Positions 9,638-47,262 of a stretch of 64,000 nucleotides of DNA are shown one piece after another. The position numbers and the translations under genes are program-made. A model generated the notes under the pieces. The model saw nothing but the letters and a program-made list of their open reading frames with translations, had not been told where the DNA came from and ran no database searches. Every line of letters starts with the position of its first letter. Position 1 is the stretch's first letter. The stretch comes from Chelatococcus caeni (GTDB lineage Bacteria; Pseudomonadota; Alphaproteobacteria; Rhizobiales; Beijerinckiaceae), in contig NZ_JACIEN010000001.1 in the NCBI RefSeq assembly GCF_014196925.1, positions 620,001-684,000 on the forward strand, in the 5' to 3' direction.

Positions 9638-12538
9638 GTCGCTCCCCATGCGGGGGCGTGGGTTGAAACGGCTTCGTCGTCAGCCAGACGTCGCATGTCG
9701 AGGTCGTCGCTCCCCATGCGGGGGCGTGGGTTGAAACACATCGAGGCCGCCGCGCATATGGAAGGGGACGGGTCGCTCCCCATGCGGGGGCGTGGGTTGA
9801 AACAAGATCGTCATCGATCGCGCCGACCTCTTGAAGGTCGCTCCCCATGCGGGGGCGTGGGTTGAACCCCCCCCTATAGTCCCCCCCAAGGGGGACGAGA
9901 GAGTCGCTCCCCATGCGGGGGCGTGGGTTGAAACCTCATCCTGCAGGTTGCGGACGATGGAGAGCGAGCCGGTCGCTCCCCATGCGGGGGCGTGGGTTGA
10001 AACCTCCACCATGCGGCGCATCTCGGCATCCACGATGGTCGCTCCCCATGCGGGGGCGTGGGTTGAAACATCTCCGCACCTTTGGCTTGGTGACAATCGC
10101 GTAGGTCGCTCCCCATGCGGGGGCGTGGGTTGAAACCAGGCCATCGAGCTGCGCCCGGTGGACGCCGGCATCCTGGGTCGCTCCCCATGCGGGGGCGTGG
10201 GTTGAAACGTCAGGGCGCCGTTGAGCGCCCGCGTCGTTCCCTCGTCGCTCCCCATGCGGGGGCGTGGGTTGAAACCTTAAGCCACCACGCCGCCCAACCC
10301 TTGGCCGAGGTCGCTCCCCATGCGGGGGCGTGGGTTGAAACGGTACCACCTCCTCCGGCTCAATGCTGATGTCGAGTCGCTCCCCATGCGGGGGCGTGGG
10401 TTGAAACTGGAAGACGGCCGGCTCGTGTGGGGCTGGGGCGGGGTCGCTCCCCATGCGGGGGCGTGGGTTGAAACCGTGCTGGCGTTCGGGTCCGGCGCTG
10501 CGGCGGCCGTCGCTCCCCATGCGGGGGCGTGGGTTGAAACTGCACGTGCCACGCCAGAAGCATCTGCTTGAAGGTCGCTCCCCATGCGGGGGCGTGGGTT
10601 GAAACATGAGGATGGCCCGCTGCACCACGTTGGTGGCGTGTCGCTCCCCATGCGGGGGCGTGGGTTGAAACTTCACCTGCCGGATGGAGGTGCGGGCTCC
10701 GGGGGTGTCGCTCCCCATGCGGGGGCGTGGGTTGAAACTCAGAGAACCGGCGAACGGTGATGTCGGGGAACTGTCGCTCCCCATGCGGGGGCGTGGGTTG
10801 AAACGCCGCCGGCAAAGCCGCCCAGGCCGCCAAGCAGGAGTCGCTCCCCATGCGGGGGCGTGGGTTGAAACGCGCCAAAGCCGTCGATCCCGATGCGCAC
10901 AGTGGTCGTCGCTCCCCATGCGGGGGCGTGGGTTGAAACGGCTACTTGTCGCCGTGCTACTGGATCAAAGACCGTCGCTCCCCATGCGGGGGCGTGGGTT
11001 GAAACAGCGTGATCGCCGGCCGCTCGCCCGTATCCGGCTGTCGCTCCCCATGCGGGGGCGTGGGTTGAAACTCCCGCAAGCCGCTGGCCCAGATCCTCGC
11101 CGAGGTGTCGCTCCCCATGCGGGGGCGTGGGTTGAAACCCAAGCCGGCCGGTGTCGTCTCGTGCTGATGTGGTCGCTCCCCATGCGGGGGCGTGGGTTGA
11201 AACATCTTGCTACCCTCCCTCACGCCGCTGCCACGCTGGTCGCTCCCCATGCGGGGGCGTGGGTTGAAACGGGTTGTCCTTCGAGAACACGAAGGCGTAG
11301 ACCTGGTCGCTCCCCATGCGGGGGCGTGGGTTGAAACTGGCCCAGGATGGCCAAGGGAGCGTACATCGTCGTCGCTCCCCATGCGGGGGCGTGGGTTGAA
11401 ACCCTACGATGGTGGAGACGGGCTCGCGCATGTCGTGTCGCTCCCCATGCGGGGGCGTGGGTTGAAACCCGTCTTGAATAAATGCCCTAATATTCCCCGA
11501 CCCGGTCGCTCCCCATGCGGGGGCGTGGGTTGAAACCCCGGCGATCCGGCGAAGGCGCTCAGGGCCTGCGGTCGCTCCCCATGCGGGGGCGTGGGTTGAA
11601 ACGCCCTCGGACTCGCTCCGGAGCAGGTGCTTGAGGGTCGCTCCCCATGCGGGGGCGTGGGTTGAAACTGCTCGGTGAGCATGTAGCGCTCGCCGATGAC
11701 GAAGTCGCTCCCCATGCGGGGGCGTGGGTTGAAACCCGAAAGTGGGCCAACCCCTGAGGCCCTTGAGGAAGTCGCTCCCCATGCGGGGGCGTGGGTTGAA
11801 ACCGGCGCCCTGCAGGATGACACGCTGAAGTCCCACGTCGCTCCCCATGCGGGGGCGTGGGTTGAAACTCAAGCGCGTCGCGCTCCTCAAGCCAGCCTTC
11901 GGGTCGCTCCCCATGCGGGGGCGTGGGTTGAAACTCCTCCTCGCCGCTCTTCTCGCGGCCCTCTCCGCAGTCGCTCCCCATGCGGGGGCGTGGGTTGAAA
12001 CTTAAGAAGCGGCTAGAGGCGGTCCTGCTGCGCCGGTCGCTCCCCATGCGGGGGCGTGGGTTGAAACAACCAGGCCACCGACGAGAAGACGGAATGGGTG
12101 AGTCGCTCCCCATGCGGGGGCGTGGGTTGAAACTTGATGCCGGCGGCCTTGTCGGCCATCTCAAGCTGTCGCTCCCCATGCGGGGGCGTGGGTTGAAACG
12201 AGGCGAGCGGAGCCGGCCCGCCTGCGATGGCCCGGTCGCTCCCCATGCGGGGGCGTGGGTTGAAACTTCCAGGACCGCCTCGCCATGGGTGGCTTCGCGG
12301 CGGTCGCTCCCCATGCGGGGGGCGTGGGTTGAAACAGGAAGCACCTCCCCAAGGTCGAGAAGCCGAACGTCGTCGCTCCCCATGCGGGGGGCGTGGGTTG
12401 AAACTCCAGCTTGGCGCGCCGGCGCTCGTCGATCGGATGGTCGCTCCCCATGCGGGGGCGTGGATTGAAACCTGATGGACGAATACGTGAAGGTCGACCG
12501 TGCCCGTCTCTCCCCATTGCGGGAACGCGGATCGAAAT
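9638..12538 (+). CRISPR. Subtype I-C-like CRISPR array, 44 repeats and 43 spacers
   Basis: A 32-bp repeat begins GTCGCTCCCC and ends GGGCGTGGGTTGAAAC, the pattern of subtype I-C. Repeats start at 9638, 9706, 9772, 9837, 9903, 9972 and so on every 65-72 bases up to 12440; a degenerate last copy is at 12506-12538. Spacers are 33-37 bases except one of 40 at 10137-10176, and none looks duplicated. Repeat 4 has A to C at 9867; repeats at 12303 and 12372 have an extra G in the G-run; the repeat at 12440 reads GTGGATTGAAAC. Decay at the right end and the TTGAAAC ends put the leader on the left. No cas genes are in the window. Confidence 0.98.
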
Positions 12539-12889
12539 TTGGGCCGGTCTGCGGAGCATCCGCAGGCCGGCTGCACTCCCGCGTGGGCGTATGCCGTCAT
12601 CCAGACGAGGAGCTTGGACAGGCGGCTCGGGGTCGTCCCGAACTTGCCAGCTTCATGAAAAACGGGCTTCGATGCCGGAAAGTCGCTTCAAAGCCTGCTT
12701 TGATGTGGCGCGCCGCTATGCAAGCCGGCTTTCATAGCGAGGATCGGGCGCCCGGAGCGGGAAGGGAGCGCCGCTGTGCCGGCATCCGTGCCGACGAGTG
12801 GTGCCTCGTCTTCCCTGTTCGTTCGCGACCTGCGCGAGCGAACGGGCTCCGCAGGCGGACATCAAAGCGTTGATTTTCTTGGATTTCCG
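12539..12889. other. Gene-free stretch between the array and tRNA-Ser
   Basis: About 350 bases with no ORF that looks coding, no further recognisable repeat and no clear terminator. It may be decayed array or old accessory sequence. Confidence 0.6.
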
Positions 12890-12978
12890 CGGAGACGAGG
12901 GGATTCGAACCCCTGATACGTGTTACCACGTATAACGGTTTAGCAAACCGCCGCCTTCAGCCACTCGGCCACGTCTCC
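12890..12978 (-). tRNA. tRNA-Ser (anticodon GCT)
   Basis: On the minus strand the gene reads from GGAGACGTGGCCGAGTGG at its 5' end, with a GGTTTGCTAAACC anticodon stem-loop giving anticodon GCT, a long variable arm (ACGTGGTAACACGT) typical of serine tRNAs, and the T-arm GGGGTTCGAATCCCC. The acceptor stem GGAGACG/CGTCTCC is perfect, with G as discriminator. CCA is not encoded. Its 3' end faces the CRISPR array. Confidence 0.96.
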
Positions 12979-16672: not shown

Positions 16673-16831
16673 ACGGCCATCCTGCGAAAAGGCAGTCGCG
16701 CAAAGCCGGAATCGAGGCTATGATTAGTCTGTCGCCGCAAGCACGCTTACGGACGAGACCGCTCGGCCTGCCGCATGGCGTGGCCATGTATTTTCGGGTA
16801 TGATGAAAACTCTCCCAGTTGGATATCCTGT

Positions 16832-17569
16832 ATGAACCGATACGATGATAACCGTGACGCCCGCCGCAGGGGTGGTGGCCGTCGCGACAGCTTTGACTCC
16901 CGTGACGGCGGTTTCGGGGGGCGCGATGGTGGCTTCGGCGGTCGTGACGGAGGCTTCGGCGGCCGTGATGGCGGCTTCGGGGGCCGTGACGGCGGTTTCG
17001 GTGGCCGCGAGGGTGGTTTCGGCGGTCGTCCGTCGCGCGATGCGTTTGCGGCGCCGGCCGGCCCGCCGACCGACGCGACGGTGAAGTGGTTCAACCCCGA
17101 GAAGGGCTTCGGCTTCGTTGCCTGCGAGGATGGGTCGGGCGATGCCTTCCTGTCCATGCGCTCGCTCGAGGCTGCCGGCTTCAACGGGGCCGAGCCGGGT
17201 GCGCGCATCGTCGTGCGCCTGCGCGAGGGACCGAAGGGCAACCAGGTCGCCGAGGTGCTCGAGCTCGAGGACCTGCCGCCGCAGCCGCGCGCTCCGCGTG
17301 GTCCGCGCGCCGGTGGCGGCGGCGGCGGCTTCGCTCCGCGGGTTCCGGAAGGACCGGCCGAGGAGATGGCGGGCACCGTCAAGTGGTACAATCGTGACAA
17401 GGGCTTCGGCTTCGTGCAGCCCGACGACGGTGGCCGCGACGTGTTCGTCCACGCTTCGACGCTGCAGCGCGGTGGCATCGCCGACCTCGCCGAGGGCCAG
17501 CGGGTCAACATGAGCGTCGTCGCCGGCGCCAAGGGCCGTGAAGCCTCGATGATTTCCTACGCCGACTGA
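16832..17569 (+). CDS. Double cold-shock-domain protein with RGG-like repeat tract
   Basis: A 245-residue predicted RNA-binding protein. Residues 1-23 are charged ([18 protein letters not shown]), residues 24-65 are six heptads of RDGGFGG (the last REGGFGG), and two cold-shock domains follow at about 82-147 and 181-245. Both have the RNP1 motif KGFGFV. RNP2 is normal in the second domain (VFVHAS) but altered in the first (AFLSMR). A Gly-rich linker with [10 protein letters not shown] joins the domains. Tandem-CSD proteins are common in alphaproteobacteria; the long GGFGGRD tract is unusual. A strong terminator follows. The start at 16832 removes an unlikely N-terminal extension. Confidence 0.9.
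16901..17026 (+). repeat. Six in-frame 21-bp tandem repeats coding RDGGFGG
   Basis: Six near-identical 21-bp units inside the cold-shock gene encode five RDGGFGG heptads and one REGGFGG. Variation between units is mostly at third codon positions, which suggests selection on the protein sequence rather than very recent slippage. Confidence 0.9.
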
Positions 17570-17614
17570 CCGGCGGCGCAAGCCTCGCCGATCTTCGGAC
17601 GTCCGAGATGAAGA

Positions 17615-17644
17615 AGCCGCGGGCGGCTGCGCCCGCGGCTTTTT
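17615..17644 (+). terminator. Intrinsic terminator after the cold-shock gene
   Basis: An 11-bp perfect stem, AGCCGCGGGCG with CGCCCGCGGCT, and a GCTG loop are followed by a run of Ts. It lies 45 bases after the stop codon. Confidence 0.92.
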
Positions 17645-17685
17645 GCTGCGTTGCGGCAACTTTTTGCGTTCGCTGCAAGGTCGTT

Positions 17686-17760
17686 GCAAGATCTGTCCTG
17701 GCAAGATCTGCCCTGGCAAGATCTGCTCTGGCAAGATCTGCTCTGGCAGGATCCGCCGTG
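17686..17760 (+). repeat. Five 15-bp tandem repeats upstream of the patatin gene
   Basis: Five head-to-tail copies of GCAAGATCTGctCTG (17686-17700, 17701-17715, 17716-17730, 17731-17745, 17746-17760); the last is diverged. They lie between the cold-shock terminator and the patatin start, 57 bases before the start codon, in what should be the promoter or 5' untranslated region. Confidence 0.92.
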
Positions 17761-17817
17761 CCGTATGCCGTCCTGTCATATGGCTGTGCGACAAGGGCGA
17801 TCATGAGGGGAGGGCGG

Positions 17818-18987
17818 ATGGCGAAGGCAGCAGGATCCGGCGCGTCGCGTGACGGCGAGCGTCTTCCCTTCGAGTGCATCGCCCTTGTCCTCCAGGGGGG
17901 CGGGGCGCTCGGCGCCTATCAGGCCGGCGTCTACGAGGCGCTGGCCGAGGCCGGCATCCATCCCGACTGGGTGGCGGGGATCTCCATCGGCGCCATCAAT
18001 TCGGCCATCATCGCCGGCAACGCGCCCACCGAGCGCGTCGACAAGCTCAGGGCCTTCTGGGAGCGCATCACCGCGCGCCCGACGTGGGAGCTGGCCGGCG
18101 CCTGGTTCGACACCATACCGCACGGGGACTTCGCCCGCAGCGTCATCAACCAGATCAGTGCCGAGATCGCGCTTTTCGAGGGGGCGAGCGACTTCTTCTC
18201 GCCGCGTTTTCCGCCGCCCTTCTTCCAGGCGGCCGGCAGCCTCGCCGCCACCAGCTTCTACGACACCCGGGCGCTGCGCAGCACCCTGGAGGAACTGGTC
18301 GACTTCGACCGCATCAACGCCGGCGAAACGCGCCTGAGCGTCGGGGCGGTCAATGTCACGAGCGGCAACTTCACCTATTTCGACACGACGAAGCATCGCC
18401 TCGCGCCCGAGCACGTGATGGCGAGCGGCGCCCTGCCGCCGGGCTTTCCCGCGGTCGAGATCGACGGCGAGTTCTATTGGGACGGCGGTCTCATCTCCAA
18501 CACGCCGCTGCAATGGGTGGTGATGCAGAGCGGGACGCGTGCCGACACCCTGGCCTTTCAGGTCGACCTGTGGAGCGCCGGCGGACGCTTTCCCGCCACG
18601 CTGACGGATGTGTCGACACGGCAGAAGGAGATCCAGTTCTCCAGCCGCACGCGCGCCAATACGGACCAGTTCAAGCAGATGCAGGAGCTGCGCCACGCCC
18701 TCGCGCATCTCCTCGACAAACTGCCGCCGGACCTCAGCCGCAGCGAGGAGGCCCGCCTCCTCGGGCGCGCGGCGGATTTCAAGGTCTACAACCTCGTCCA
18801 TCTCATCTATCGCTCGCGCGCCTATGAGGGGGATTCGAAGGACTACGAATTCTCCCGGCGCAGCATGCGGGACCACTGGCAGTCGGGCTACGAGGATGCG
18901 GCGCGCGCCCTGGCGCACCCGCAGATCTTCACGCGGCCGCAGAACCACGCCGGACTGCAGGTCTTCGATTTCGCCGACGAAGAGTGA
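17818..18987 (+). CDS. Patatin-like phospholipase (DUF3734 type)
   Basis: A 389-residue serine hydrolase. The oxyanion-hole motif GGGALG is at 27-32, the nucleophile motif GISIG at 54-58 (Ser56), and the catalytic Asp in DGG at 222-224, giving a complete Ser-Asp dyad. The C-terminal extension fits the DUF3734 group, often found in Hyphomicrobiales beside ketone-body or PHB-related genes. Here an acetoacetate decarboxylase gene follows 80 bases later. The start at 17818 has GGGGAGGG upstream; ATG 17803 is an alternative. No signal peptide is seen, so it is probably cytoplasmic. Confidence 0.9.
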
Positions 18988-31385: not shown

Positions 31386-31480
31386 GGGCAGTCGGCAATA
31401 GGCAGTGGGGCAATAGGCAATAGGCAATAGGCAGTAGGCAACAGGCAGTAGGGCGGTAGGCGGTGGGCAGTAGGGCGGCA
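31386..31480. repeat. GGCAATA/GGCAGTA microsatellite
   Basis: About twelve degenerate 7-8 bp units of the type GGCAATA or GGCAGTAG follow the dehydrogenase stop. This tract is related to those at 22784 and 47205 and, like them, lies next to a REP-like element. Confidence 0.82.
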
Positions 31481-47204: not shown

Positions 47205-47262
47205 CGACTGCCGACTGCCGACTGCCGACTGCCGACTGCCGACTGCCGACTGCCGACTGCCG
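47205..47262. repeat. GACTGCC microsatellite
   Basis: Eight perfect 7-bp units of GACTGCC (GGCAGTC on the minus strand), immediately before the 3' end of the MmcQ/YjbR gene. Only a few bases separate it from that stop codon. Confidence 0.92.

Follow-up and report, generated by a model that had tools for sequence, protein, structure and literature searches.

A heptad repeat array in the N-terminal tail of a double cold-shock-domain protein of Chelatococcus

The double cold-shock-domain (CSD) protein encoded at 16832-17569 on the plus strand of the window carries in its N-terminal tail an array of six heptads, five reading RDGGFGG and one REGGFGG (aa 24-65; 16901-17026, plus strand), and the peptide of this array is, judging by the pattern of substitutions, under purifying selection. 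As far as the compared sequences tell, the exact tract is a trait of one lineage and its composition recurs in the family. The window is the whole stretch of DNA analysed, 64,000 nucleotides long, from a Chelatococcus caeni genome of 5.43 Mb. We consider it fairly probable that the protein is a cold-shock-type RNA chaperone, to which the disordered segments add weak multivalent contacts of arginine and aromatic residues.

The gene and its surroundings

Re-reading of the sequence gave the same open reading frame (245 aa), start and heptad repeat as the earlier note on this DNA. The N-terminus MNRYDD and the context of the start codon (ATG at 16832) are common to seven aligned relatives, and AGTTGGAT, directly 5' of the ATG, is kept in six of these seven. 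A conserved promoter-like block ending in TATGAT (16695-16724, plus strand) lies 107 bases before the start codon; it aligns with C. sambhunathii and C. composti, less strongly with Pseudochelatococcus and C. asaccharovorans, and is not conserved in the orthologue L011 of genome G002. The promoter consensus scanner reported no promoter. Downstream, a GC-rich hairpin with a T run (17615-17644, plus strand), kept in C. sambhunathii and C. composti, is a probable intrinsic terminator, inside which the scanner's stem (17625-17640) is a shorter one. Because of the promoter-like block upstream and the hairpin downstream, the gene probably forms its own transcription unit. By Pfam, its neighbours are pyruvate carboxylase (upstream), patatin, acetoacetate decarboxylase and a GntR regulator, identities that suggest no functional link to the double-CSD gene.

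Outside the array, the use of GGT and CGT is above that of five neighbours (p 0.0007 and 0.003) and no different from that of 12 ribosomal and EF genes (p 0.45 and 0.22), so that from codon use alone, with small counts, the protein is probably abundant. Within the array CGT, and perhaps GGT, are above the ribosomal genes (p 0.009 and 0.05; 6 and 24 codons).

Several other features were observed in the window. The patatin ORF as listed (17608-18987) begins within the terminator region of the double-CSD gene; its likelier start is the in-frame ATG at 17818, which follows a purine-rich stretch. Beyond the terminator lies a 15-bp tandem repeat, GCAAGATCTGCCCTG (4.8 copies, 17686-17757), of which about three diverged copies were seen by eye in C. 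sambhunathii and about one in C. composti; in C. sambhunathii these repeats are followed, again by eye, by decarboxylase-like sequence, as if the patatin gene were missing. A long CRISPR array at 9638-12471 holds 41 copies of the repeat GTCGCTCCCCATGCGGGGGCGTGGGTTGAAAC with at most four mismatches, 39 of them exact, and two further copies with an extra G were found by eye. Of six ORFs compared with Pfam to its left, three matched (MoeA, ExoD and a solute-binding protein) and none of these is a cas gene, and a tRNA-Ser (gct) lies just beyond it on the minus strand (12889-12978). Two heptanucleotide tandem repeats, GGCAGTA (12.3 imperfect copies, 31386-31476) and CGACTGC (8.3 perfect copies, 47205-47262), are also present.

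Domain architecture and predicted structure

The cold-shock domain (Pfam PF00313) matches two stretches of the protein, which as a whole scores 116 bits where the cut-off is 27; five CSD matches exceed the cut-off in the genome, two of them in this protein. AlphaFold2, given 41 family members, models two OB folds with block means of at least 90 over aa 81-140 and 181-230, whereas pLDDT is below 50 over aa 14-72 and 148-173; low model confidence being the usual sign of disorder, the latter two stretches are predicted to be disordered. The proposed union of two CSDs with a low-complexity tail is therefore upheld by the Pfam matches and by the predicted disorder over aa 14-72. Along the plus strand, an Arg/Asp-rich segment of 23 residues (16832-16900), which aligns with the RRRGFDDD motif of the family that is absent in this lineage, precedes the array, and CSD1 (aa 79-145, predicted OB fold, 17066-17266) is separated from CSD2 (aa 179-241, 17366-17554) by a Gly/Pro/Arg linker of predicted disorder (aa 148-173, 17273-17350). 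The best matches among solved structures are single CSDs, namely CspA, CspC and CspE, then YBX1 (YB-1) and YBX2, with the CSD of AtGRP2 (8tg0) at rank 49.

CSD2, found by Pfam and by fold prediction, is canonical, with complete RNP motifs (KGFGF, DVFVH), and its RNP2 His is present in 93/93 orthologues. In CSD1 the RNP1 motif KGFGF is intact and the RNP2 His is replaced by Ser (DAFLSM); this position holds His in 85, Ser in seven and Pro in one of the 93 orthologues. The eight that lack His are the same eight that start with MNRYDD. Since the RNP2 His, which we take to matter in cold-shock domains, is Ser here, CSD1 of the MNRYDD lineage is likely weaker. A connection between the array and the loss of this His was considered and rejected, as the loss is common to array-less relatives (five of the eight).

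The repeat array and selection on its peptide

Tandem Repeats Finder gave the array scores of 181 (period 42) and 141 (period 21). At lag 7 the tail matches itself over 29 residues at longest, against at most 9 in 10,000 shuffles of the tail residues at lags 2-15. Arg, Phe and acidic residues each occur six times among the 42 residues, and the array is thus a charge-neutral R/D polyampholyte. The first unit ends in the codons GGG GGG at the same position in all three species that carry the array, which argues that the units were not homogenised while their silent sites diverged. In C. composti the array comprises five units, one of them of six residues.

When the six units are compared with one another, 6 of 21 nucleotide positions vary, all of them third codon positions, with one D/E change; the chance that six varying positions all fall among the seven third positions of 21 is 1.3e-4. 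Summed over unit pairs, which are not independent, pS is 0.66 and pN 0.02. Among the best 80 of 502 relatives, the closest named one is Chelatococcus sambhunathii DSM 18167 (98% identity in the best segment), and it served for the site-by-site comparison of the array; the C. composti array, which differs in length, was left out. Between the window and C. sambhunathii the array shows seven silent changes at 34 sites and no replacement at 92 sites (Fisher p 6e-5), the CSD1 region 16 silent and 3 replacement changes, CSD2 10 and 0, and the first 23 residues none of either kind. Against C. composti the counts are about 24 silent and about 10 replacement changes for the CSD1 region, 18 and 3 for CSD2, and 2 and 1 for the first 23 residues. 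The earlier claims that unit variation is mostly silent and that the peptide is kept by selection both agree with these counts. The array peptide is accordingly tightly conserved in one species comparison, though its unit number and length may vary.

Searches for further tracts and for RNA elements gave little. In its own genome the tract had one other hit with E up to 1 (L129, E 0.04), which was rejected: it lies opposite to a 330-aa ORF, and no ORF of at least 300 aa is listed on its own strand. The Rfam scan returned five matches at an E of 1 or less, all scoring far below the respective gathering score. Excess codon scrambling in the array was rejected, its GGC share being no different from that of the rest of the gene (p 0.41).

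Distribution of the array among relatives

Loci were taken from 60 related genomes and from a collection of 84,980 species genomes (the best 80 of 502 relatives). The resulting 115 loci included several copies of one gene; 16 were left out, and of the remaining 99 there were 93 distinct. Those left out had less than 120 bits (single-CSD or paralogue matches, and L026, a relative with a split alignment) or no start found on a cut or late-beginning contig (L053, L067, L077 and L115); L107 was left out as well. The left-out L067 also has DRGGFGG in its linker. A single alignment of at least 120 bits occurs in 20/60 related genomes, by hand count from the table, and in a class-wide sample 346/385 genomes gave at least some match, single CSDs included.

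The array is present in 3 of the 93 distinct curated orthologues, those of the window genome, C. sambhunathii and C. composti, which are close relatives of one another. It is absent in Pseudochelatococcus and C. asaccharovorans, and of the four Chelatococcus genomes compared it is missing in one, G002, whose protein (L011) is 63% identical. Single seed-like stretches occur in the nearest sisters, for instance RDGGYGHSSRDD in Pseudochelatococcus lubricantis and RDSGFGGPR in L010, a relative of C. asaccharovorans. A query with the tract against 397 genomes of the order matched three, that of the window and two spurious ones: matches in G304 run through TAG stops, and G045 has a DNA repeat that was matched in three reading frames (GFGLRAS). 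Neither C. sambhunathii nor C. composti was matched; presumably neither was in that sample.

A tree of the CSD columns, from a short search on 100 rows and 129 columns, leaves 37 of 90 inner branches open. It places the three array rows in one group (SH-aLRT 94), apart from a group of seven Pleomorphomonadaceae (99), and joins the array group with Pseudochelatococcus, C. asaccharovorans and L010 (SH-aLRT 86); L011 sits on a long unplaced branch. A second two-CSD paralogue of the genome itself (L003, C1:1414606-1415070) has no Gly/Arg/Phe tail and groups, on a long branch of its own, with similar proteins from six related genomes.

Since the array is missing in 90/93 curated orthologues, it is not needed for the core function of the family. 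The earlier note had regarded absence of the tract from close relatives as evidence against its reading, and in the nearest sister genera the tract is indeed absent; yet comparable tracts stand elsewhere in the protein in other lineages. The comparison of repeat number and silent variation across orthologues that it had suggested yields six or five units in only three species, but it does find the peptide conserved against C. sambhunathii.

Low-complexity segments across the family

Most members share an N-terminus of the form M[SG][RK]GRDFR.PRRRGFDDD. Its RRRGFDDD part is conserved in most of the 93 members inside a variable, disordered tail (e.g. L044, 273-905), and may be a docking site. 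The pattern [RK]G[FY]DDD occurs in 71/93 orthologues, or 78/93 if GG is allowed, but in 0/8 of the members starting with MNRYDD (Chelatococcus, Pseudochelatococcus, L010 and L011). In the window protein the array begins right behind this changed N-terminal motif.

Low-complexity segments are found at two places, between the N-terminal motif and CSD1 and between CSD1 and CSD2. In the 93 proteins the ratio of Arg to Lys is 744:100 in the tails and 475:3 in the linkers; for their CSDs it is 488:762, and for 322 ORFs flanking the named loci 12165:2704. G[FY]G occurs in the tail or linker of 72/93 proteins. Motifs of DR or RD with Gly and an aromatic residue occur in 24/93 proteins (56 sites in 9,089 residues; 24 of these sites belong to the three array proteins) and in 1/322 flanking ORFs (one site in 123,271 residues), a descriptive count, as the motif was defined once the tails had been seen and the flanking ORFs are unmatched for disorder and Gly.

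Other lineages have short arrays of related composition in their linkers. Pleomorphomonas koreensis (L085) carries GGDRGGFGGGDRGGFGGG, L062 and L156 have units of DRFGGG, and Roseicella (L069) has two copies of GGFGDRPPRA; the units read FDRGG/YDRGG in L159 and PRPDRFGGG in L166. The window array, with its 29-residue self-match equalled in C. sambhunathii, is the longest repeat among the 93, followed by the GGGGM repeat of L046 at 14. Repeats of this kind are lacking in many members, in whose linkers there are GGM or Pro/Arg runs or nothing similar. A G/F/R/D composition that recurs among relatives is nevertheless supported by the 93 orthologues and by the class loci (26/30 parsed, among them the window's own locus and a few already counted). 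Mainly because their place in the chain differs, the array and the linker repeats appear to have originated independently. It is rather unlikely, in our estimate, that double-CSD proteins of Alphaproteobacteria repeatedly and independently evolved repeats of Gly, an aromatic residue and D/R at these two places, in convergence with TAF15, for the reason that multivalent Arg and aromatic contacts make an RNP-condensate scaffold tuned by repeat number.

The tract had also been likened to RGG segments, a likeness that does not hold under a published definition. This definition requires two or more RG/RGG elements that fit the GAR pattern (PMC9957100). The array holds no RG, and neither the GAR nor the di-RG pattern is matched in the tails of the window, C. 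sambhunathii and C. composti proteins. Elsewhere in the family the GAR pattern occurs in 39/93 tails and 13/93 linkers, many of the tail matches being RGs of the N-terminal motif.

Possible roles and origins of the array

Cold-shock domains bind single-stranded RNA or DNA, and CSD2, likely less so CSD1, would be expected from the domain family to do the same in this protein. The N-tail, stretched to six RDGGFGG units in one Chelatococcus lineage, would then add many weak contacts, with Arg reaching phosphate and bases, Phe stacking, cation-pi contacts between Arg and Phe, pairing of Arg with Asp, and Gly as a flexible spacer. Such a polyampholyte would suit weak, reversible contacts with itself and with RNA, and could concentrate the protein locally and make it more avid, both on RNA and towards its own copies. 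We infer both RNA binding by the tail and its multivalency; since Arg is paired with Asp or Glu and the net charge is zero, binding should be weaker than in true RGG tracts.

Whether the tail goes further and drives RNA-dependent condensates in the cell, as the tails of AtGRP2 or TAF15 do, is a tentative proposal that we would not expect to hold. It draws on the G-F-R-D repeat with a unit close to TAF15 DRGG-YGG (PMC12818744, PMC9957100), on the AtGRP2 precedent (PMC13261584) and on similar repeats in other lineages of the family; but Phe and Arg number just six each in the 42 aa, six acidic residues cancel the charge, RG is absent, and AtGRP2 needed Arg, yet removal of Tyr raised its phase separation (PMC13261584). 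A sticker role for Phe therefore does not follow. It is likewise doubtful that the tail is a near-neutral spacer, expanded by slippage in GC-rich Gly codons, in which selection only purges insoluble or toxic variants. The restriction of the array to one lineage, the five-unit variant of C. composti with its short unit, and the single RDGGYG or RDSGFGG of sister lineages as a possible seed for copying would all suit such an origin, but zero replacements against seven silent changes between two species, the high silent divergence between units and the retention of F, R and D/E go beyond mere flexibility.

A multi-copy protein-docking motif is quite improbable. RRRGFDDD would here have been replaced by RRD-GFD-RD and an RD-GF unit then amplified for the same partner, in keeping with [RK]G[FY]DDD being common in the family and missing from all MNRYDD starters and with the position of the array right behind the changed motif; the likeness between motif and unit is only slight, however, and there is no known partner. 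Scarcely credible, finally, is the notion that a DNA or RNA element or an antisense ORF is conserved rather than the sense peptide. An antisense ORF of 261 aa does read (PPKPPSR)6 through the array, and as its wobble positions coincide with those of the sense frame (worked out by hand), the array changes are silent there too, and array silence alone cannot tell the strands apart. The sense frame was chosen not because of the array but because of its CSDs and conserved start, with a family behind it, and the antisense frame over the gene is broken by stops in four relatives (two in C. sambhunathii, one in C. composti, six in P. lubricantis and four in C. asaccharovorans). An RNA element was rejected on the ordinary folding of the array (z -0.71), and silent sites diverge strongly between units. 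We thus retain the reading of an RNA chaperone with weak additional tail contacts.

The double-CSD family, which spans, in cultured species, everything from repeat-free members to nearly perfect heptad arrays, offers a natural experiment on the low-complexity tails of an RNA chaperone, and the sister species that lack the array make the role of multivalency directly testable in bacteria.

Comparison with known systems

CSDs with Gly/Arg-rich tails are already known in plants; among the matches listed from the open-licence literature, nothing in titles or abstract openings concerned the tails of the double-CSD family. TAF15 has an RRM and a zinc finger instead of CSDs. Its repeat is described as D(S)RGG(G)YGG (PMC9957100) or as YGGDRGG (PMC12818744), and this FET-family protein resembles the window array in having a unit of Gly, one aromatic residue and a D/R pair. 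The array differs in RD instead of DR, in Phe instead of Tyr, in lacking RG, in its six units and in its N-terminal place, and the TAF15-type DRGG(Y/F)G repeat is absent from the window protein. DRGG[FY]G is found at least once in the linker of 7/93 proteins (L025, L035, L071, L074, L085, L099 and L108) and in tandem in the Pleomorphomonas linker (L085), whose DRGGFGG comes close to TAF15 DRGG-YGG.

AtGRP2, a plant CSD protein with a Gly/Arg/Tyr tail, forms droplets in vitro that are abolished by removal of Arg, whereas removal of Tyr raised phase separation (PMC13261584). It shares with the window protein a CSD and a disordered Gly/Arg/aromatic segment, and by this analogy RNA-dependent condensation of the double-CSD protein is plausible. 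It differs in having one CSD, two zinc knuckles interspersed with Gly-rich regions (PMC11602973) and Tyr in the C-terminal part (PMC13261584).

The CspA family and Caulobacter crescentus CspC and CspD have the same domain, PF00313, in CspC and CspD in two copies (PMC4551563), and are likened here by domain content, not by tree; the long Gly/Arg/Phe tail and the family N-terminus of RRRGFDDD type set the window protein and its family apart from them. CspC and CspD are induced in stationary phase, with CspC thought to act via mRNA stability (PMC4551563), and cold therefore need not be the relevant condition. Rho is an unrelated protein, but it too is conserved in bacteria and binds RNA, and its low-complexity insertions are specific to lineages and in some cases contain short tandem repeats (PMC10284900); its insertion adjoins a CSD-like domain, and phase separation has been reported for Bacteroides thetaiotaomicron Rho (PMC10284900).
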